DNA from: Calditrichota bacterium
Lineage (GTDB): Bacteria > Calditrichota > Calditrichia > Calditrichales > J004
DNA: 56,159 nt
Assembly (NCBI GenBank): GCA_024277115.1
Contig: JAJRVW010000014.1
Coordinates: 1 to 56,159 of the forward strand
Reading direction: 5' to 3'
Shown here: positions 148 to 13,181 of the stretch, in pieces
Numbering within the stretch: the first letter of the stretch is position 1
How the letters are laid out: every line of letters starts with the position of its first letter
Position numbers and translations under genes: made by a program
Notes under the pieces: model-generated
The model's input: the letters and a program-made list of their open reading frames with translations, nothing else
Told to the model about the DNA's origin: nothing
The model's database searches: none

Positions 148-3100
148 CTAATTAAATTGAACTGAAACCAATTTAGAGACACCTTCTTCTTCCATTGTAA
201 CGCCATACATAGTCTGTGCGGCCTCCATGGTGCGTTTATTATGAGTTACGACCAAGAACTGTGTATTATTGGAAAAACTCTTTAATGCCTCGGTAAAGCG
301 GCCAATATTAACATCATCAAGCGGCGCATCCACCTCGTCCAGAATACAAAACGGGCTTGGCTTAACAAGGTAAATTGAAAATAATAACGAGATCGCCGTA
401 AGCGTTTTTTCCCCACCTGAGAGAAGTGATAAAGTCTGCAGGCCGCGCCCCTTTGTAGTTACTTCAATATCAATGTCTGCCTCAAGGGGATCATCGTGTT
501 CATCCAGCATAAGGGTACCGCTGCCATTCGGAAAAAATGATTTGAATACTTTTTCAAAATTGTCCTTGATGGCAGTAAAGGTCTCTTCAAATTGTGTCCG
601 CGCCGTTTTATTAATTTTATCGATGGTTTCTAACAAGGATTGTTCCGCTTTTAAGAGATCGTCACGCTGACTTGTTAAAAACTCCAACCGTTCACTTTCT
701 TTTTCATGTTCGGTAACAGCAAGGGGGTTAACCGGCCCGAGGTGCTTGATACGGTTGCGCAACGACTCGATCAGCTCTTCGGTTTCCTCCTCGTTCAGGT
801 TTTCATTAGGCAGGTGGGCATCTACATCGGTGGAGTATTCTTTGGAGGCGTAGTTGCGCACGGCTTCGGATTGATATTTATACTCGCTGATCTGTATCTC
901 AAGCTTTTTGGATTTTTCCAGTGAATTATCATGTTTACGGCGAAATTCACGTATCTCAGTTTCCAATTGATGACGCTTGTCTTTCAACTCCTGAAATTCA
1001 CTTTCGATGGCCTGCTTTTTTTTGTCCAATTCATCACGATGTTGCCATAATTGTTCACGCTTTACTTTGCGCTCCACAATTTCCTTATCAAACTGTACCA
1101 AAAGATTATTAATGTTTTCAATTTCTTCCTTGCGGCGGGCAATGCTTGTTTCCAGTTCTCTCACCGTGTCGGCAATCCGTTTTAAATCATTTTCACGGTT
1201 TACAAGGCGGTTTTGCGAGTTACTGTGTTTTAACTGTATTTCCTGGTATTCATCTAAAAGTAATTGAAAAGCCTCATTCTTTGTTTCAAATTCATTAGTG
1301 CGCACGATGGTTTCACGCTCCAACTTATTAAGCTCTTCTTGTTTTCCCTCCAGCTCGGATGAAATAGCAGCAGTCTCTTTTTTCAACTGTTCAATCTGAT
1401 TGTTCAATTGGGTCGTTTGAATATCGGCGGCTTCAAGTTGTTTTTGTTTGGTGCCAAGCTGATAATTAAGCTGTTTTAATTTATTATCGGCCTCATAAAA
1501 GGCGCGTTGTTTTAAATCGAGCAGCTCGCGTTTTTCTTTTTCGCTTGCCCGTATCTGTTCCAGCTCGGCCTCAAGTTTTTGCGAAGCTTCTTTTAATTGC
1601 TCGATTTCACGCTCCTGGTTTTCTCTTAAAACTTCTAATTCGTTTAACTTATTTTTTCTGCCCACTATGGTCGATTCTTTTTTACCGGGCGTGCCACCAC
1701 TAATTTCGCGGTTAAAATTAACTGTTTCACCATCCGGCGTAATAAATCGCAAAGCGGGGAAACCTTCAGATACTTCAATCAGCTCATCCAGGGATTTCCC
1801 AACTACCACATCACCGATCAGGATGTCCAAAAGATGTTTAAATTTTTCCGGGACGGAGATATGGTCAATTAAAAATGTTAAGTTATTCATTTTCGCATCA
1901 CGCCCGGGTGCATCAATTTTGGCAACACGGTTTAAAGGCACACAGGTAAGCCGGCCCTGGTTTTCACCTTTAACTTTTTGGATTAGCTTTTGGGCAACAG
2001 CGGCATTTTCCACAATAATAAAATTAAGCGAATCTTTTAAGATCGATTCGACAAGCGGGGCATATTCGTCATTCGCGTCAATCAGTTCGGCAATGGGGCC
2101 AAAAACACCGGGGAGTTGATCTTTTTGGGACATGATGAACTGAGTGCTTTTTGAGTGGCCTTCATAATTACTGATTATGTTTTTAAAAAACCCTTCGCGT
2201 GAACGGGTGCGTTCCAATTCGCTCAGCAATTTGTTATAAGAAGATTGTTTCTCGGATAAATTTGCCGCAACGGCGGATGCACTTTCTTTTAATGCAGAAA
2301 GCTCAGATTTTAATTTTTCTAATTCGGTCTCGATTTCGGCCTTTTCCGTTCCGGTTTCAGAGATCGCGCCAGTAAGGTTTTTTATTTCCGAATCTTGTGC
2401 ATTGTTCAAGTTATTGATTTTTTCAACCTGCTCTGTATCAAAATTTAAACGGTATTCTTTTTGTTTAAGCAGCTCTTTCTTTTCTGTCACTAAATGAAGC
2501 TGCTCGCGGAACTGAATATTTAAGCGGTCAATTTCAGCTTTCTCAGCATTAATAATATCCGCTTTTTCTTCCTTCTCCCTCCGGATTTCATCAAACTGGC
2601 TGTTGAGGCGTTCTGTATTGCCACGGATTTGCTCCAACTCGTCCGTATAGTTTTCTTTATCGTCGTTTAAAAGGGTTATCTTTTTTAAATAGCCATCGAT
2701 TTCATCAAGGTAGCGTTCCCGGTTTTTCTTCATATCTTCGATTTTTGCTTCGGCAATCGCATCATCCTGGTTCAAGTTTCGGATGGTAATATCTTTTTCG
2801 TAAAGGGTTTTATTAAGTTCCTGGACACGTTGTTCAAACTCGATTTGCTGGCGGTTATAATCCTCTAAAATGGCTTCTTCCAATGTGATCTGGTGCGAGC
2901 TTTCTTCTTTTTCCTTGCTGATCATTTCCAGTTCTAATTCCAGGGGATCGATGCGGTCTTTTAAATTATGATAGCGAAATACAGAAAGATCAATATCATT
3001 TTTCTTAAGCTGATCGGTCAAATCGATATAGCGGCGTGCCTTTGATACCTGGCGGCCAAGGGAAGAAACGGTTTTTTCAACCTCAATGACAATGTCGTTG

Positions 3101-3672
3101 ATACGCGCCAGGTCTTGCTGCGTGGAGTCAAGTTTTCTTAAGGCCGATTTTCGGCGCGTTTTATATTTTACAACCCCTGCCGCTTCTTCAAATAATAAAC
3201 GGCGCTCACTTTTGTTTTCGCTTAAAATACTTTCAACCATTTTTAGCTCGATCACCGAGTATGAGTTGGCGCCCATCCCCGTATCCATAAAAAGGTTGAT
3301 GACGTCTTTAAGGCGAACGGGCACTTTATTGATCATATACTGGCTTTCGCCCGAGCGGTACAAACGGCGGGAAATTACAATCTCATCATACTCACTGTCC
3401 AGAATGTTTTTATTATTCTCGATGGTCATGGAAACTTCCGAGAGGCCCATCGGTTTACGTTTTTTTGTACCGTTAAAAATAACATTTTCCATTTTATCGC
3501 TACGCAAGGATGAAACGCGCTGCTCACCTAAAACCCAGCGGATCGCATCCACGATATTTGATTTTCCCGAGCCGTTTGGCCCGATTATACAGGTAAGCCC
3601 CTGATTAAATTCTAAGGAAATTTTTTGAGCAAATGATTTAAAGCCTAATATTTCTAATTTGGATAGGTACAT
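148..3672 (-). CDS. smc: Chromosome segregation ATPase SMC
   Basis: SMC is the core of bacterial condensin, a dimeric ATPase that organises and segregates the chromosome with ScpA and ScpB. The 1174-residue protein has the standard length and order. An N-terminal Walker A (GPNGSGKS, residues 31-38) is followed by a long coiled coil, a hinge near residues 510-660, a second coiled coil, and a C-terminal ATPase half. That half carries the signature LSGGEK (about 1084-1089) and Walker B ending ILDEVDAPLDD (about 1110-1120), then a D-loop and the switch segment VVTHNKRTM. The start is the ATG at 3672-3670 with a weak AAGAAG upstream. scpA and scpB are not adjacent. The gene is last on its strand before the partial transposase. 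Nothing looks broken. Confidence 0.98.
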   Translation of the reverse strand: MYLSKLEILGFKSFAQKISLEFNQGLTCIIGPNGSGKSNIVDAIRWVLGEQRVSSLRSDKMENVIFNGTKKRKPMGLSEVSMTIENNKNILDSEYDEIVISRRLYRSGESQYMINKVPVRLKDVINLFMDTGMGANSYSVIELKMVESILSENKSERRLLFEEAAGVVKYKTRRKSALRKLDSTQQDLARINDIVIEVEKTVSSLGRQVSKARRYIDLTDQLKKNDIDLSVFRYHNLKDRIDPLELELEMISKEKEESSHQITLEEAILEDYNRQQIEFEQRVQELNKTLYEKDITIRNLNQDDAIAEAKIEDMKKNRERYLDEIDGYLKKITLLNDDKENYTDELEQIRGNTERLNSQFDEIRREKEEKADIINAEKAEIDRLNIQFREQLHLVTEKKELLKQKEYRLNFDTEQVEKINNLNNAQDSEIKNLTGAISETGTEKAEIETELEKLKSELSALKESASAVAANLSEKQSSYNKLLSELERTRSREGFFKNIISNYEGHSKSTQFIMSQKDQLPGVFGPIAELIDANDEYAPLVESILKDSLNFIIVENAAVAQKLIQKVKGENQGRLTCVPLNRVAKIDAPGRDAKMNNLTFLIDHISVPEKFKHLLDILIGDVVVGKSLDELIEVSEGFPALRFITPDGETVNFNREISGGTPGKKESTIVGRKNKLNELEVLRENQEREIEQLKEASQKLEAELEQIRASEKEKRELLDLKQRAFYEADNKLKQLNYQLGTKQKQLEAADIQTTQLNNQIEQLKKETAAISSELEGKQEELNKLERETIVRTNEFETKNEAFQLLLDEYQEIQLKHSNSQNRLVNRENDLKRIADTVRELETSIARRKEEIENINNLLVQFDKEIVERKVKREQLWQHRDELDKKKQAIESEFQELKDKRHQLETEIREFRRKHDNSLEKSKKLEIQISEYKYQSEAVRNYASKEYSTDVDAHLPNENLNEEETEELIESLRNRIKHLGPVNPLAVTEHEKESERLEFLTSQRDDLLKAEQSLLETIDKINKTARTQFEETFTAIKDNFEKVFKSFFPNGSGTLMLDEHDDPLEADIDIEVTTKGRGLQTLSLLSGGEKTLTAISLLFSIYLVKPSPFCILDEVDAPLDDVNIGRFTEALKSFSNNTQFLVVTHNKRTMEAAQTMYGVTMEEEGVSKLVSVQFN

Positions 3673-3741: not shown

Positions 3742-6222
3742 TTAAAACAAAGTACGGGAATGTAGCAGGGTAATCAGGTAATCATACCACATGGGTTGCG
3801 GTATAAAAAAGAAACCGAAAATAACAAGTGGCAATATATAAGACAAGAGCAATACAAGAAAAATTAGCCTGTATTTTGAGAGGATCAGCACGCGGATACC
3901 ATTCATCAACCGGATATGTGTCCATAAAATAAAAAACAGGAAAATAAAGACCATGGGCAGCACAAATAAATCTTTTATTAGCAGATGGTATGCAGCAAAA
4001 CTGAGCGGCAACATAAAAATTATCGGTGCGCCAGACCACAAACCGATTGCCAATGCCTGGCGTAAGCGGATGTAGTTTTTTGTAAGTACACCAATCACTT
4101 TTAAAAGAAAACCGATTAATAACGGGTGGATAAAGAAAAACAGAAAAAGTATCGGGATGATCATTAATTCGGATTTACTGATTTCGAGATAAGTGGAGAA
4201 TATCTCTGTATTGGGTATAAGCACATTTATGACTTCCTGAACAAGAAGGGAATCATTGGCAAAATAGATAAATGAGCCGACAAAAATTGAGAGGATCAGC
4301 GCATTATGGAAGCCAAGCATGAACGAGATAAAAATGGGGATAATCCGCCGTTCGCGCATGTCCACATAAAAACCATAGGGGTGTTTAATTGAACGTCGGT
4401 AATTTTCGCTAAAGCGGGGATAGCGTTTGTAAAAAAAGAAAAAGATCAAACTTCCAAAAAACAGAATTATTGAAAAAACATTGCTTGGTTTGTTTCGCTT
4501 GTGTGCAGCAAGAATTTCGGTGCCTGCATTATCCCAAAAATTCTCACCTTGTGCCGCCCACTCATATTTTGTTAGGGTAGAGTCGTAAAGACCGTTTTTT
4601 ACAAGATTGTCTTTCCGGGTTATATTTTGGTACGATGGTTTCGCTGCACGCCAGTCTTGAAAAGTTTCCAAAAAGCCACCTTGAAGTTTAAAGTCATTTT
4701 GGACGGCCTTAATATCATTTTGTAAAATCAGTTTGTGTTGCAGGCTATATTTTGGGTTCCCGGTAGCAAGCGTGTTAAACCCGGTTTTTCCTGCAAGTAA
4801 ATAAGGGATTTTTGACGCTGAAATTAAATCTATTTTTGAGCGGATTGGCGTATACATATCCAGCATGTAAAAATCTGCCAGCATTTCCGGCGGTGTGTTT
4901 TTCGTCAGGATTGGCGCAAGATAGGTTAAAAAGGGTACTGGCCGCTCTGTGGAGCCGTTTAAAATAATATAAAACTTTTGTGTGGCCGGGTCAGAAAGTA
5001 CTATTTCCTGTCCAACGCCCACGGCGAAAAAGGAGGGGTGCTTTTTGAAATTATCGATGGTTGTGGCGAGCGTATTTTTTAAATTTTCAAGAAGGGCGTC
5101 TTTTTTAAATATAATGTCCGGATAACGTCTCAAGGGTAAATCCATAAAGAGCATCAGCCCCAAAGAATCGGCAATGCGCAAAAAGCGTTCATCAGGTATA
5201 TGGCCCATAAAGCGCACGGCATTAAACCCATCAGCCTTAATTAATGTCAGCTCATTTAACATGGCTGCATAAAGGTTTGATCCGTCTTTAAAGCCAAGGT
5301 TTTCATAAAAGGTTACGCCTTTAATCAATGGTTTGGTAAAATTAAAAGAGATTACATTGTTCTCAACCCGTACATCGCGGATGGCCACTTTTATTTTATT
5401 TTCTTCGATGGATTTTCCAAAGCGGTTTATTCCAACGGAAAAAGTAATAAATTGGCGGGTATCAAGTGTCCAGAAAACTTTTGTAGAAATTTTAATCCTG
5501 TTTTTTATTAGGCCCGATTTTTGAAACGATGGAACTCGGCGACGTGAAATAACTTTATTATTGCTGTCCAAAAAAGATTCTGTAAAGGCCAGTCCGCTTT
5601 TATTTTTATACGAGGCCAGTGCCCGCGATGAAATTTTGTAGCTATAATCTAAAATAAAGGATTTATTTACTTTTGAAACCTGGTAGGCAAAATCAGAAAA
5701 GATTTGTGAGCGAACCAGTTCAAGATAAAATGGCCGTACAATACCGATATATTCAGGCTCTGTATAAAGATGTGTAAAGCGCGGGAAACCATTATCAACG
5801 GTCGCGTTTTTTATTAAGATTATTTTAATCTGGTTTGGGGAATTTGTTAACAAAAATTGTTTATTGATTTTAATGCGGGCCGGTGCGCTGGCATTGGGTT
5901 GTTTTAAGATTTGGTTGCCATTGAGAAAAACGGTCGCACGTCCATGGAACCCCAGTGATTTGAAATAAACTTCTTTGATGGTAGAATCGGCAGAGAAACT
6001 AAAACTGTTTGTGAAAATGAGGGTGTCCCTGGAATCGGAAAAAAAGGGCAGGGTGGTTGAACCATTTAATCCCGTAACGGTCCAATTATCCATTTTGTAC
6101 AGGGCTATAAGATCAGTACGGCTGTCCAAACCAGGAGCATTACCCCAGTTTGGCCGGTAATCTTTTGCATAGATTGATGCAGAAAATATTATAAAGAGAA
6201 GAAGTATGCGTAAAAATGCCAT
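3742..6222 (-). CDS. Secreted GH2-like protein fused to a C-terminal multi-pass membrane domain
   Basis: The 826-residue protein starts with a signal peptide (hydrophobic stretch ending about residue 19, SIYAKDY). A beta-sandwich-like region of about 280 residues follows, then a stretch resembling a glycoside hydrolase family 2 TIM barrel: NAVRFMGHIPDERF, a SLGLMLFMDLPL strand, and KHPSFFAVGVGQE, where the final Glu lies where GH2 enzymes carry the acid/base Glu (normally GNE). The expected nucleophile strand seems to read PYLLAGKTGF with no Glu, so hydrolase activity is doubtful. From about residue 575 to the end there are six or seven hydrophobic segments. I infer a periplasmic sugar-binding or degenerate hydrolase domain anchored in the inner membrane. 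It lies between pdxJ-like and smc on the same strand, and its substrate is unknown. Confidence 0.65.
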   Translation of the reverse strand: MAFLRILLLFIIFSASIYAKDYRPNWGNAPGLDSRTDLIALYKMDNWTVTGLNGSTTLPFFSDSRDTLIFTNSFSFSADSTIKEVYFKSLGFHGRATVFLNGNQILKQPNASAPARIKINKQFLLTNSPNQIKIILIKNATVDNGFPRFTHLYTEPEYIGIVRPFYLELVRSQIFSDFAYQVSKVNKSFILDYSYKISSRALASYKNKSGLAFTESFLDSNNKVISRRRVPSFQKSGLIKNRIKISTKVFWTLDTRQFITFSVGINRFGKSIEENKIKVAIRDVRVENNVISFNFTKPLIKGVTFYENLGFKDGSNLYAAMLNELTLIKADGFNAVRFMGHIPDERFLRIADSLGLMLFMDLPLRRYPDIIFKKDALLENLKNTLATTIDNFKKHPSFFAVGVGQEIVLSDPATQKFYIILNGSTERPVPFLTYLAPILTKNTPPEMLADFYMLDMYTPIRSKIDLISASKIPYLLAGKTGFNTLATGNPKYSLQHKLILQNDIKAVQNDFKLQGGFLETFQDWRAAKPSYQNITRKDNLVKNGLYDSTLTKYEWAAQGENFWDNAGTEILAAHKRNKPSNVFSIILFFGSLIFFFFYKRYPRFSENYRRSIKHPYGFYVDMRERRIIPIFISFMLGFHNALILSIFVGSFIYFANDSLLVQEVINVLIPNTEIFSTYLEISKSELMIIPILFLFFFIHPLLIGFLLKVIGVLTKNYIRLRQALAIGLWSGAPIIFMLPLSFAAYHLLIKDLFVLPMVFIFLFFILWTHIRLMNGIRVLILSKYRLIFLVLLLSYILPLVIFGFFFIPQPMWYDYLITLLHSRTLF

Positions 6223-6255: not shown

Positions 6256-6969
6256 TTAGCTGATGATGGCCTGTAAATCCCTAAGCGCTTGCTCAATGCC
6301 GATAAAAATGGCTTTGCTTACTACGGGCTTGCCGATCACAATATCTTCAATATTGGGGATTTGGGAAACTTCACGCACATTATCGTATCCAATCCCGCCG
6401 GAAATATTAACGCCCATGCCCAATTTGCCGGCAGCCAGCGCCAACCCGGAGATATTGTCGAGGGCGTCAACTTCGCTGTTCATATCCGCTGCCTCGGAGA
6501 GTGATGTCGCGTCAAATTCAACATAATCGAGTTCCAGCTTTCCGGCCAGTTTTACTTCAGAAATTTCGGGATTGATCAATACGGAAGACAAAATATTATT
6601 GGAGCGCAATTCGGCCACATAATTTTGTAATTGTCCGGTGTAGGTATCAAGGGAAATTGGTTGGGGCGAAAAGCTTTTTAGCTCGCCCGGGGCAACAAAA
6701 GTTATCATGTCCACCTTTAGGCCAATCAGGCTGCGCACATTCTCTTCGGTTAGGTTGCAACGAACGGTTAAATGGGTTTTTACCAGTTCTTTAAAAAGTT
6801 TGATGTCCCGGGGTTTTACCGTGGCCTGGTCGTCACGCAGATAACAAACAATTGATTCCGCCCCGCCGAGCTCTGCCATAATTGTGGCGCTTACGGGATC
6901 CGGTTCATTTTCACCAAGGGCGTTTCGAACAAAAGCGATCGGGTCAATATCCAGGGCAATACGTTGCAT
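6256..6969 (-). CDS. PdxJ-like protein lacking the catalytic residues
   Basis: The 237-residue protein aligns along its whole length with pyridoxine 5'-phosphate synthase PdxJ, a TIM-barrel enzyme that condenses 3-amino-1-hydroxyacetone phosphate with deoxyxylulose 5-phosphate. Landmarks kept are PDPV near residue 24, PRDIKLFKELV, and GYDNV. The active site is not kept. The family NIDH is DIDP here, VHLREDRRH is CYLRDDQAT, the Glu of NLEMA falls at Arg, AGHG is ISGG, and IGHA is IGKP. These comparisons rest on my memory of the E. coli sequence. The start is ATG at 6969 with GGAGG upstream. The frame is clean, so this looks like a paralogue with a new role rather than a decayed gene. No pdxA lies in the window. 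Confidence 0.8.
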   Translation of the reverse strand: MQRIALDIDPIAFVRNALGENEPDPVSATIMAELGGAESIVCYLRDDQATVKPRDIKLFKELVKTHLTVRCNLTEENVRSLIGLKVDMITFVAPGELKSFSPQPISLDTYTGQLQNYVAELRSNNILSSVLINPEISEVKLAGKLELDYVEFDATSLSEAADMNSEVDALDNISGLALAAGKLGMGVNISGGIGYDNVREVSQIPNIEDIVIGKPVVSKAIFIGIEQALRDLQAIIS

Positions 6970-7083
6970 TAAAAAACCTCCAAAATTAAAATATCTATTT
7001 AAAAAAAATCCATTGTTGGAAAAGGATTATTACAAAATATGTATGCAATTCGTGTCTGTCTTTAAAGTAGGTTCGTTCCATGT

Positions 7084-7178
7084 TGTCATGCTGAGGTATT
7101 TTTTAACGAAGCATCCCATCTCTTGTCATGACTTTTGCAAAAAGGGGATTCTTCATCAAAGAACGATTCAGAATGACA
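7084..7178. repeat. Dispersed palindromic repeat with 11-bp inverted ends
   Basis: TGTCATGCTGA (7084-7094) is the inverted counterpart of TCAGAATGACA (7168-7178) with one mismatch. The inner parts contain GAAGCATC and GGGATTCTTC segments. The organisation, with TGTCAT ends and an internal GATTCTTC block, is typical of short non-coding palindromic repeats scattered between genes in FCB-group genomes. It fills most of the gap between the PdxJ-like gene and the lipoprotein pair. I see no convincing coding frame in 6970-7262. Confidence 0.6.
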
Positions 7179-7262
7179 GCTAACGGCCTTTACAGACAGG
7201 CACAAATTAAACTGGTTGCTCAAATTTCTTTTGCTATGTCTTGCCAGGTTTACCAAAGCATC

Positions 7263-7802
7263 CTAAAAGGATGCTTTATCTTCCCATAAAACAATCTTCC
7301 ATCTTCCCGAAGTTTTTTTGCGCATAACAAAAAAGGCTTCGCTATTTATGCTTGGAATGGTACTTCCTCCATCGATGGTTAGCAGAAAAAGCTGCTTCAT
7401 TTCTACCATATTGCCTTCCTTGTTATAATTTTCAAAAATAGTGCCGCCCCATGCAAGGTTAAAGGTTTGGTATGCACGGAACAGGCCGGCGGTTGTTCTT
7501 AGTTCTGTATCACGCCCCCAAGTTAAATCGGTTACCGGGTTAGTGGAAAAATCTTTTGAAATAAATAAAAATGTCGTGTCAATCAAATCGCTGTAAACAA
7601 GCGAATCTTTAAAATTATAGGCAAATGCAAAATTGGTCAATACCTCTTGTGGCGTTTCCTGCTCAGTTAAAATAAGCGTTGTATTGGATAATTCATCGCT
7701 GAGGGACGGTGCAAATGGATTACAGCTCCAAGACAGGGTTAAAATCAAAAAGAGACTTAAATAAAAAGGTTGATCAATTTTTTTTATTTTCATAAAAGCC
7801 AC
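7263..7802 (-). CDS. Predicted lipoprotein, NTF2-like appearance (second of a tandem pair)
   Basis: The product is about 176-179 residues with a lipoprotein signal: a hydrophobic core followed by the lipobox LSWSC, so Cys about 27 from the GTG start would be lipidated. The start is ambiguous. The GTG at 7802-7800 overlaps the upstream stop (TAGTG), while an ATG three codons later at 7793 gives a more compact signal peptide. The mature part follows the same plan as the upstream lipoprotein: a helix with EVLTNFAFAYNFKDS, a central aromatic W segment, and a C-terminal strand ending KIVLWEDKA. This layout resembles small NTF2/SnoaL-like folds, which is inference. I do not recognise a function; tandem duplication and translational coupling are likely. 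Confidence 0.75.
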   Translation of the reverse strand: MAFMKIKKIDQPFYLSLFLILTLSWSCNPFAPSLSDELSNTTLILTEQETPQEVLTNFAFAYNFKDSLVYSDLIDTTFLFISKDFSTNPVTDLTWGRDTELRTTAGLFRAYQTFNLAWGGTIFENYNKEGNMVEMKQLFLLTIDGGSTIPSINSEAFFVMRKKTSGRWKIVLWEDKASF

Positions 7803-8410
7803 TACTGGTTTGCTACTTTTAATGCCGACCAGGATTGCTCGATAGCCTCGTTTTTAGCTCGGTCTTCCCAATAATAAATATACCAAGCATCATTGGCTGT
7901 GGCCGATTTAAATAATTTAAAATTGGCGAAGCCCACATAAACCGTTTCGCTATCTGCCAGAATTACTTTTAATTCATATTCCATAAAATCAGTCTCGACA
8001 GAATCAAGGGCGGTAAAAACTTGTGCCGGGAGCGAATCAATAAAAGTGAAACGAAAAGAGGGCTTAATATTATCATCGCTTTTAACCAATTTAGAGAAAA
8101 AAATTTGCTCCTCAGTATACGTCCATGGAGAAAACAACTGACTTATCTGGTTGGCATCGCCCACAAAACGAAAATGCCTCTCGGAAACAATATCCGGGTT
8201 GGAAAAGAGCTTGCCATATTCTACAGTATTGGCACCTTCAATCGCCCTGGATAAATTGGTCATTATTTTTACCGGGTCGGATGGATCCTCAAAAACCTGC
8301 GAAACCGAACCCGGATCAGGCTTTTCCACCTTATCTGCCCGCGTGGAGAAAAGGTTTGTACAACTTAGTGTAAATAAAAAAATAAGGACCGGGAAGATTG
8401 TTTTAAACAT
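7802..8410 (-). CDS. Predicted lipoprotein, NTF2-like appearance (first of a tandem pair)
   Basis: The 202-residue protein has a signal peptide ending in lipobox TLSC (Cys 17). The mature region includes DPVKIMTNLSRAIEGAN, a segment with FSPWTYTEEQIFF, and a C-terminus reading WYIYYWEDRA. The C-terminal strand and the early helix match the downstream neighbour, so the two look like diverged paralogues. The stop TAG at 7804-7802 overlaps the neighbour's possible GTG start, which suggests one transcript. No ribosome binding site is obvious before the ATG at 8410. The function is unknown; a membrane-tethered periplasmic or outer-membrane ligand-binding role is only a guess from the fold. Confidence 0.8.
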   Translation of the reverse strand: MFKTIFPVLIFLFTLSCTNLFSTRADKVEKPDPGSVSQVFEDPSDPVKIMTNLSRAIEGANTVEYGKLFSNPDIVSERHFRFVGDANQISQLFSPWTYTEEQIFFSKLVKSDDNIKPSFRFTFIDSLPAQVFTALDSVETDFMEYELKVILADSETVYVGFANFKLFKSATANDAWYIYYWEDRAKNEAIEQSWSALKVANQ

Positions 8411-8937: not shown

Positions 8938-10587
8938 TTAGCGGATTAGCAACATCCTTTTTGTTTTAGTTTGGTCATCTGTTTTAAGTTGATAATAATA
9001 TATTCCGCTTGCCATGTTCTCTAAAGCAAGGGGGATTTTATAAGCGCCCCTGTTTAGCCTCTTATCAAGCAAAGTGATAATTTCCATGCCCAGCGTGTTG
9101 AAGACTTTCAGGTTAACTTTTGTGGATTTAACAATATTGAAAGAAATGGTTGTGGACGGGTTAAATGGGTTGGGATAGTTTTGATATAATTCAATTTGAT
9201 TAGGAGCTGCATTAGACGCATTTGAAAGACTGGTTACAACCTCGCCTAGTATACCATTGGCCGAAATTTGTTTAATTAGTATTTGGTTTCCATTACAGCA
9301 TTCATTCCATAATAAAATTGCCCCTCCACGTTTATCAGAATACAAATGGATTGGCCCACCTGTAAAAAATGGGTCTAAGGAAGTAGAATGAAACTCTATA
9401 CCTAAGCTGTCCCATAAAAAAAGACCAGAACTGTCTATTCGCTGCATGTAATATGAATTAGTTGTGTCATTACTGATATCAGCCCATGCTGCAATAGCCC
9501 CATTTTTTTTGTCAGATATTAACCCAACAGCACCTCTGCAATCTCCCAAAGAACAAATTGATAGATTGTTTTCTCCAAATACAGTTTTCCCATTTATATC
9601 GACTTTTTGCAGGTTTATACCTTCCTTAGACCAATTTACATAAATCCCTCCTTCACCATCGGGCGCATATCTAATTTGGGAGAACTGCCCCTGTTTCAAA
9701 TCCACTTCATCCCAGGCATACTGCCCGGTGGAATCCACTCTACGGATTTTTAAAAAACCTATACTACCTACACCAATTACACCCCCATCGCCATCCGGTA
9801 GAGCTCCACCACTTCTATATCCAAAACTATCATAGATATTACCTATTAATGTATCTGGCCATAAATATGAACCGCTTAAATCGAGTTTATGTCTACTTCC
9901 TTTTCCATCTGGATTTGTATTAACAAAAACCTCACCCCTTTTATTTGTAGCACTGATATCCATATAAAGACCTGCAAAAAATCTTTCCCACTGCAAATGC
10001 CCATCTATATCAAAATGTTTGAGAACGCTCATCTCTGCCGTACTGTCCCGGTTAAAACCAATATAAAACCCCCCGTTGTAATCCGGTTTCATATCGCCGA
10101 TGCTATGCCAACCATCGGTGGCCGGGCCACTTATTAATTTGCCGTTTGTGCCGTATAAAATATTGCCGTCCCTATCCACACGTTGCAGGTATACTTCGCT
10201 TCCTTCAGGGAATCCTTCAAAATCATCAAAGGTGGCATGCCTGTAATCTTCCCAGGCTACTACTACACCGCTTTGCCCATCATTTATTACTGCAGCCCAT
10301 TGTCCGTTTGAAGCCACTTCACTTATTATCCAACCATAAGCCGTATCGCTTAAAACCACATGGTTGCCGTTCCAAAGCGGATAGCCGTCTTTGTCAAATT
10401 TCTTTGCCCAAATGCCATTATCACGCAGGTATACAATGGTTATGGACTGGTCCTCTTCATCCACAACCAGGTTTGGGTAAATGCCATAGTCTACAAATAA
10501 GGCTGTGTCCACGGCGGTGGGCCATTGGGCGTTAAGGTTTATGATGAAGGAAATAAGGATGATGGGAAGTAAGTTTTTTTTTAGCAT
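8938..10587 (-). CDS. Secreted beta-propeller-like protein with C-terminal T9SS-type sorting domain
   Basis: The 549-residue protein has a signal peptide (residues 1 to about 20, ending LNAQ). The body contains repeated units built around D-x-D/S-G-x-x-x-W/Y, for example VDRDGNILYG, FDIDGHLQWE, VDSTGQYAW, VDINGKTVFG and IDSSGLFLW. This suggests a beta-propeller, perhaps with six or seven blades. The last 85 residues form the usual sorting module: NYPNPFNPSTTISF, a KVFNTLGMEI strand, and a final MASGIYYYQL then KRMLLIR. In T9SS-bearing bacteria this region directs export and surface attachment. Ligand and role are unknown. It stands alone on its strand, with repeat clusters on both sides. Confidence 0.85.
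   Translation of the reverse strand: MLKKNLLPIILISFIINLNAQWPTAVDTALFVDYGIYPNLVVDEEDQSITIVYLRDNGIWAKKFDKDGYPLWNGNHVVLSDTAYGWIISEVASNGQWAAVINDGQSGVVVAWEDYRHATFDDFEGFPEGSEVYLQRVDRDGNILYGTNGKLISGPATDGWHSIGDMKPDYNGGFYIGFNRDSTAEMSVLKHFDIDGHLQWERFFAGLYMDISATNKRGEVFVNTNPDGKGSRHKLDLSGSYLWPDTLIGNIYDSFGYRSGGALPDGDGGVIGVGSIGFLKIRRVDSTGQYAWDEVDLKQGQFSQIRYAPDGEGGIYVNWSKEGINLQKVDINGKTVFGENNLSICSLGDCRGAVGLISDKKNGAIAAWADISNDTTNSYYMQRIDSSGLFLWDSLGIEFHSTSLDPFFTGGPIHLYSDKRGGAILLWNECCNGNQILIKQISANGILGEVVTSLSNASNAAPNQIELYQNYPNPFNPSTTISFNIVKSTKVNLKVFNTLGMEIITLLDKRLNRGAYKIPLALENMASGIYYYQLKTDDQTKTKRMLLIR

Positions 10588-10781: not shown

Positions 10782-13181
<2,400 letters not shown>

Follow-up and report, generated by a model that had tools for sequence, protein, structure and literature searches.

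Vitamin B6 is made by two routes, for one of which PdxJ serves as the signature gene; in the Calditrichota this gene is found phylum-wide without the residues that make B6. The PdxJ-like gene in the window, the 56,159-nucleotide stretch of Calditrichota DNA analysed here (contig JAJRVW010000014.1), encodes a protein that almost certainly does some job other than B6 synthesis, and a database label of B6 enzyme is almost certainly wrong for it. We consider it, with a probability of about 0.58, a retained PdxJ-fold pseudoenzyme that ceased to be a PNP synthase through replacement by PdxST, that would bind a partner or ligand, and that may serve an envelope-linked role; a new enzyme is a less likely type of protein for it to be. 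This view draws on an intact fold, loss of the catalytic residues across the whole clade, purifying selection (together the marks of a pseudoenzyme), presence of the replacing pathway and conserved gene order, and it suggests that a widespread metabolic protein has a function so far unrecognised.

The predicted protein matches the Pfam PdxJ family (PF03740) over its whole length with 184.7 bits, and its AlphaFold model, built on an alignment of the window sequence with sequences from related loci and from other genomes, has a mean pLDDT of 94.1 and a pTM of 0.90. The first 16 PDB matches of this model are all PdxJ, with TM scores reaching 0.93 (1ho1 and 3gk0) and an rmsd of 1.5 Å to the E. coli protein (1ho1_A). 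Compared with E. coli PdxJ (PF03740, TIGR00559; 1ho1/1m5w) it is a TIM barrel of equal length, 24% identical in the structural match. It nevertheless falls below every NCBIfam pdxJ equivalog cut-off, the best score being 153.5 against the 190 needed, another model giving 123 bits against 192.75, and the remaining models also falling short. No export signal is visible in its sequence. Phage proteins give only weak PdxJ matches, at 24-38% identity.

The active site was compared at 14 positions of E. coli PdxJ (N9, D11, H12, R20, H45, R47, H52, E72, T102, E153, H193, G194, G215 and H216), which from UniProt/HAMAP annotation we take to be its catalytic and substrate-contact sites; H45, E72 and H193 are the catalytic triad, acting as general acid/base. 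At these positions the window protein has, in order, D, D, P, L, Y, R, T, R, F, E, G, G, G and K, so that nine of the 14 are replaced (N9D, H12P, R20L, H45Y, H52T, E72R, T102F, H193G and H216K in E. coli numbering) and D11, R47, E153, G194 and G215 are retained. The entire triad is exchanged, its positions being Y43, R70 and G191 in the protein's own numbering, and only D11, R47, G194 and G215 are kept among the substrate contacts N9, D11, H12, R20, R47, H52, T102, G194, G215 and H216. A sequence-only reading of this DNA had described a PdxJ homologue of conserved fold and length in a clean frame, which the Pfam match, pLDDT and TM values bear out, and had named six active-site replacements by P, Y, T, R, G and K. 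All six (H12P, H45Y, H52T, E72R, H193G and H216K) are correct by both the PDB alignment and alignments with canonical PdxJs, while N9D, R20L and T102F had been missed. Its refuting alternative, that the catalytic residues are preserved at shifted positions, fails, as the protein has a single histidine, at position 66, where 51 canonical PdxJ sequences have at least six (mean 8), and no shifted alignment can bring the histidines back.

These changes are shared across the phylum. PF03740 was found in 35 of the 40 Calditrichota genomes examined, at one locus per genome (in G031 the copy is divided between two contigs), and in alignment with canonical PdxJs the triad is absent from every full-length homologue, so the replacements in the window protein are not a matter of chance. 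The homologues form one clade in a 97-row quick tree (SH-aLRT 96), a grouping that the sequence-only reading had proposed to test for proteins with these substitutions. Nearly all copies have D11, E153 and H193G, position 72 being basic and position 20 hydrophobic. Two subgroups can be told apart, one comprising families f1-f3, with the motifs DIDP, YLRDD, NVRCN, NISGxI and GKP, the other families f4-f6, with LDD, TL, NLHIP and NCFGxI.

The residues that took the place of the old active site are those on which a new enzyme would depend, in which the remodelled barrel catalyses a different reaction, perhaps on a phosphorylated or envelope-precursor substrate. This we regard as a minority possibility. 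D7, D9, R70, E151, S190 and G191 each reach 95% identity or more across families f1-f3, with Y43, R45 and T50 nearly as constant, and the new pocket residues among them (D7, R70, G191 and S190, with near-invariant Y43 and T50) could support new catalysis. After PdxJ, moreover, the folds closest to the model are phosphosugar-type barrels (indole-glycerol-phosphate synthase, ribulose-phosphate epimerase), although such likeness is generic for TIM barrels. Families f4-f6, however, mostly differ at the positions fixed in f1-f3 (D10, T43, G50, and H or R70), and the phosphate-contact positions 20, 102 and 216 vary. Nor is the pocket significantly more conserved than the remainder of the protein (p = 0.085 in f1-f3, 0.27 in f4-f6; the p of 4e-9 for canonical PdxJs arises by construction, that set having been selected for a full match), so a strong new conserved pocket lacks statistical support, and this weighs slightly against a new active site common to these proteins. 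Where the earlier reading had suggested a new ligand or a regulatory role, this unexceptional conservation is no less compatible with a structural or partner-binding role than with a new ligand.

The gene neighbourhood (Table 1) is where a link to the cell envelope is suggested. One or two paralogous lipoprotein genes, mostly two, lie upstream of the PdxJ-like gene in 34 of 35 genomes, in a block divergent from ligA; downstream, families f1-f3 have the GH2-like membrane protein followed by SMC, and f4-f6 have other genes. From this gene order we infer that the PdxJ-like protein is linked to the envelope. Lipoproteins are exported and the PdxJ-like protein has no visible export signal, so contact between them would need an intermediary, or the link would be regulatory. 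Modelling of Lipo2 from four sequences, taken from the window and the related locus L001, gave a pLDDT of 43, too low to assign a fold.

Table 1. Features of the PdxJ-like locus, in window coordinates
Feature	Coordinates	Strand	Remarks
SMC protein	148..3672	-	End of conserved block, families f1-f3
826-aa secreted/membrane protein	3742..6222	-	Weak glycosyl-hydrolase-2-like part; 33 bp downstream of PdxJ-like gene
PdxJ-like gene	6256..6969	-	237 aa, ATG start; PdxJ fold, catalytic triad replaced
GGAGG ribosome-binding site	6977..6981	-	7 nt 5' of PdxJ-like ATG; read from sequence
Imperfect 34-nt inverted repeat	7084..7178	.	In 293-bp Lipo2-PdxJ gap
Lipo2, second lipoprotein, C-NPFAP type	7263..7802	-	Lipo1 paralogue; no Pfam family; start probably the internal ATG at 7793
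Lipo1, first lipoprotein, C-TNxFxTR type	7802..8410	-	No Pfam or NCBIfam family
ligA	11085..13181	+	Divergent neighbour kept across phylum

The gap between Lipo2 and the PdxJ-like gene is mostly 0-135 bp in relatives, often 0-25 bp, and is far wider in the window, where the 34-nt arms (7084-7117 and 7145-7178) are nested in a 21-nt inverted repeat (7047-7208), part of whose arm recurs at 137-159 (91%). The repeat looks like a small inserted element, and together with the width of the gap it leaves co-transcription of the two genes in the window unproven. Promoters and terminators were detected no more often than expected by chance. The gene at 8938-10587, between ligA and the lipoproteins, encodes a secreted protein that carries a C-terminal sorting domain of the NPFNPSTTI type and is not conserved at this position in relatives.

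These lipoproteins also occur in other phyla, there beside YibQ and a canonical PdxJ, as Lipo1-Lipo2-YibQ-PdxJ in G040 and as one lipoprotein, YibQ and PdxJ in G229 and G175, where YibQ, of polysaccharide deacetylase type, was named from reading of the sequences; canonical PdxJs of Ignavibacteria and Bacteroidetes sit in other neighbourhoods. The simplest history would have the lipoprotein-YibQ-PdxJ block as ancestral, with YibQ lost from it in the Calditrichota and PdxJ losing catalysis.

Outside the phylum PdxJ and PdxS largely avoid each other. Among 250 genomes of other phyla PdxJ is present in 161 and PdxS in 70, with both in eight against 45 expected (p 3e-28, shared ancestry ignored). 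The triad was read in 61 of these PdxJs, a non-random sample made up of the best and worst matches to the window protein and all those from PdxS-positive genomes, and is intact in none of the eight with PdxS and in 50 of the 53 without (p 6e-8, again ignoring ancestry), so that its state agrees with PdxS presence in 58 of 61 genomes; phylogenetically independent pairs number only three, too few to inform. Two of the three exceptions without PdxS (G129, L185; G227, L186) have a broken PdxJ and no PdxA detected either, i.e. no visible DXP route. In G127 and G267, which have PdxS, the sole triad change is E72Q, also the only triad change in G213, which has PdxA and no PdxS; this change may therefore be harmless and these three genomes say little. 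The other six broken PdxJs (G084, G092, G093, G094, G143 and G217) resemble the Calditrichota clade in combining a lost triad with PdxS, whereas the replaced residues differ, most lie on long branches, and PdxA is found in only one of the six genomes (G084). G084 shares the Calditrichota lipoprotein type and has YibQ nearby.

Such cases bear on the possibility that PdxJ, while still an enzyme, already served a second purpose independent of catalysis (moonlighting), and that this purpose is all that the PdxJ-like proteins of several PdxST-using phyla retain. This reading is compatible with the pseudoenzyme explanation, of which it is a special case, and we put it forward tentatively. PdxJ is broken in all eight PdxS-bearing genomes outside the phylum, several broken copies occupy ordinary pdxJ neighbourhoods, adjoining YibQ in G093 and G094 and between glmM and acpS (named from reading of the sequences) in G217, and the lipoprotein-YibQ arrangement stands upstream of canonical PdxJ elsewhere. 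An ancient non-B6 function tied to the envelope, through the lipoproteins, the YibQ deacetylase and glmM, might conceivably be all that maintains the protein after a switch to PdxST; if so, there is a cross-phylum family of PdxJ-derived proteins with a new function. Against this, the AU test does not reject a tree in which all strongly broken PdxJs form a single clade (p-AU 0.71), and they may therefore not represent separate cases; in addition, G127 and G267 have only the perhaps harmless E72Q. An independent origin of each broken PdxJ is accordingly not demonstrable, even though the first quick tree (97 rows) grouped G094 with the canonical G237; several losses or one old divergent subfamily are both possible.

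The window's genome (4.97 Mb, 95.6% complete), for which a Calditrichaceae MAG (62%) is the closest among named matches, has an intact pdxS-pdxT operon, in which PdxS (293 aa) is directly followed by PdxT (193 aa, named from its sequence); no PdxA (PF04166), the source of the substrate for PdxJ, was found in this assembly, and no second, catalytic PdxJ, the PdxJ-like gene being the sole homologue there. The genome search proposed by the sequence-only reading thus returns the PdxST route. In the phylum PdxS is present in 37 of 40 genomes and PdxA in 14, all of families f2 and f3. By a sum over the completeness values of the 40 assemblies, a universal gene should be missing from about 3.8 of them, a figure with which the three genomes lacking PdxS and the five lacking a PdxJ-like gene are compatible and the 26 lacking PdxA are not.

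That the protein continues to work as a PNP synthase through a rearranged active site is very improbable. The fold, D11, E153 and R47 are retained, PdxA does occur in the 14 f2/f3 genomes, and three of the phylum's genomes (G003, G022 and G023) have PdxA and the PdxJ-like gene with no PdxS detected. Yet the general acid/base residues His45, Glu72 and His193 are all absent, only one histidine is left, PdxA is missing from the window's genome and from all f1 and f4-f6 genomes, and PdxS is nearly everywhere; completeness is 88-92% in the three assemblies without PdxS, whose relatives with identical residues do carry it.

The gene is under strong purifying selection. In the four pairs for which it could be computed dN/dS is 0.068, 0.061, 0.093 and 0.037, similar to that of ligA in the same pairs (0.050-0.087). 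In one genome (G009; L055, near 9941-9951) an in-frame TAA, either a sequencing error or a strain-level break, cuts the gene into 145 and 87 aa, and the copy in G027 is very divergent. A decaying relic of a lost DXP route would fit both these copies and pathway replacement, but is scarcely credible, and as a neutral relic is ruled out, given dN/dS of 0.037-0.093, open frames in the other complete copies, and a single copy kept through six families in fixed gene order. The PdxJ-like gene is no relic, nor is it an accident of one strain, and the distinct PdxJ-like family proposed earlier is upheld as one phylum-spanning clade, under purifying selection, in organisms that use PdxST.

The pseudoenzyme explanation that we prefer would run as follows. 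An ancestor of the Calditrichota came to make PLP with PdxS-PdxT and could do without the final step of the DXP route. Remaining in its lipoprotein operon, PdxJ would then have been stripped of the catalytic triad and of most residues that contact the substrate, and been kept in a non-catalytic form; this order, PdxST gain before decay of catalysis, is the one we infer. The present protein may form an oligomer of the PdxJ type and bind a partner or a small polar ligand; its step would take place in the cytoplasm and, along with the two lipoproteins, would serve the cell envelope.

These findings have consequences for annotation. A 2023 comparative-genomic survey of PLP synthesis treated pdxJ as the marker of the DXP-dependent route. 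It listed ten bacteria in which both B6 routes apparently occur, among them Caldithrix abyssi, Fibrobacter succinogenes and Minicystis rosea, and judged the DXP route there probably incomplete because Epd, and often PdxB/PdxR too, is missing (PMC9997740). Caldithrix abyssi is a member of the Calditrichota whose DXP call rested on the presence of pdxJ, so that the risk of automatic misannotation raised by the sequence-only reading is real; the passages of the survey concerned argue from Epd and PdxB/PdxR and do not mention loss of the PdxJ active site (PMC9997740). That loss could account for at least the listing of Caldithrix abyssi. In the paper on the Caldithrix genome, PLP synthesis is predicted and PdxJ is not named (PMC5317091). 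Among the literature hits on PdxJ and pseudoenzymes or moonlighting, no title or abstract claims such a PdxJ. The triad residues provide a simple test by which PdxJ annotations can be corrected. The PdxJ of G094 (L120, 1218-1931), with H45R, H193R and H12Y, scores 266 against an NCBIfam pdxJ cut-off of 190 and is therefore likely to be annotated automatically as a PNP synthase; the adjoining YibQ is divided between two ORFs. A well-supported group of PdxJs from G101, G242, G285, G178 and G166 (L141, L142, L145, L151 and L154) has D11N, H12K and G194D with the triad intact and PdxA present where tested, and, judged from these residues, is a natural variant of the substrate pocket.
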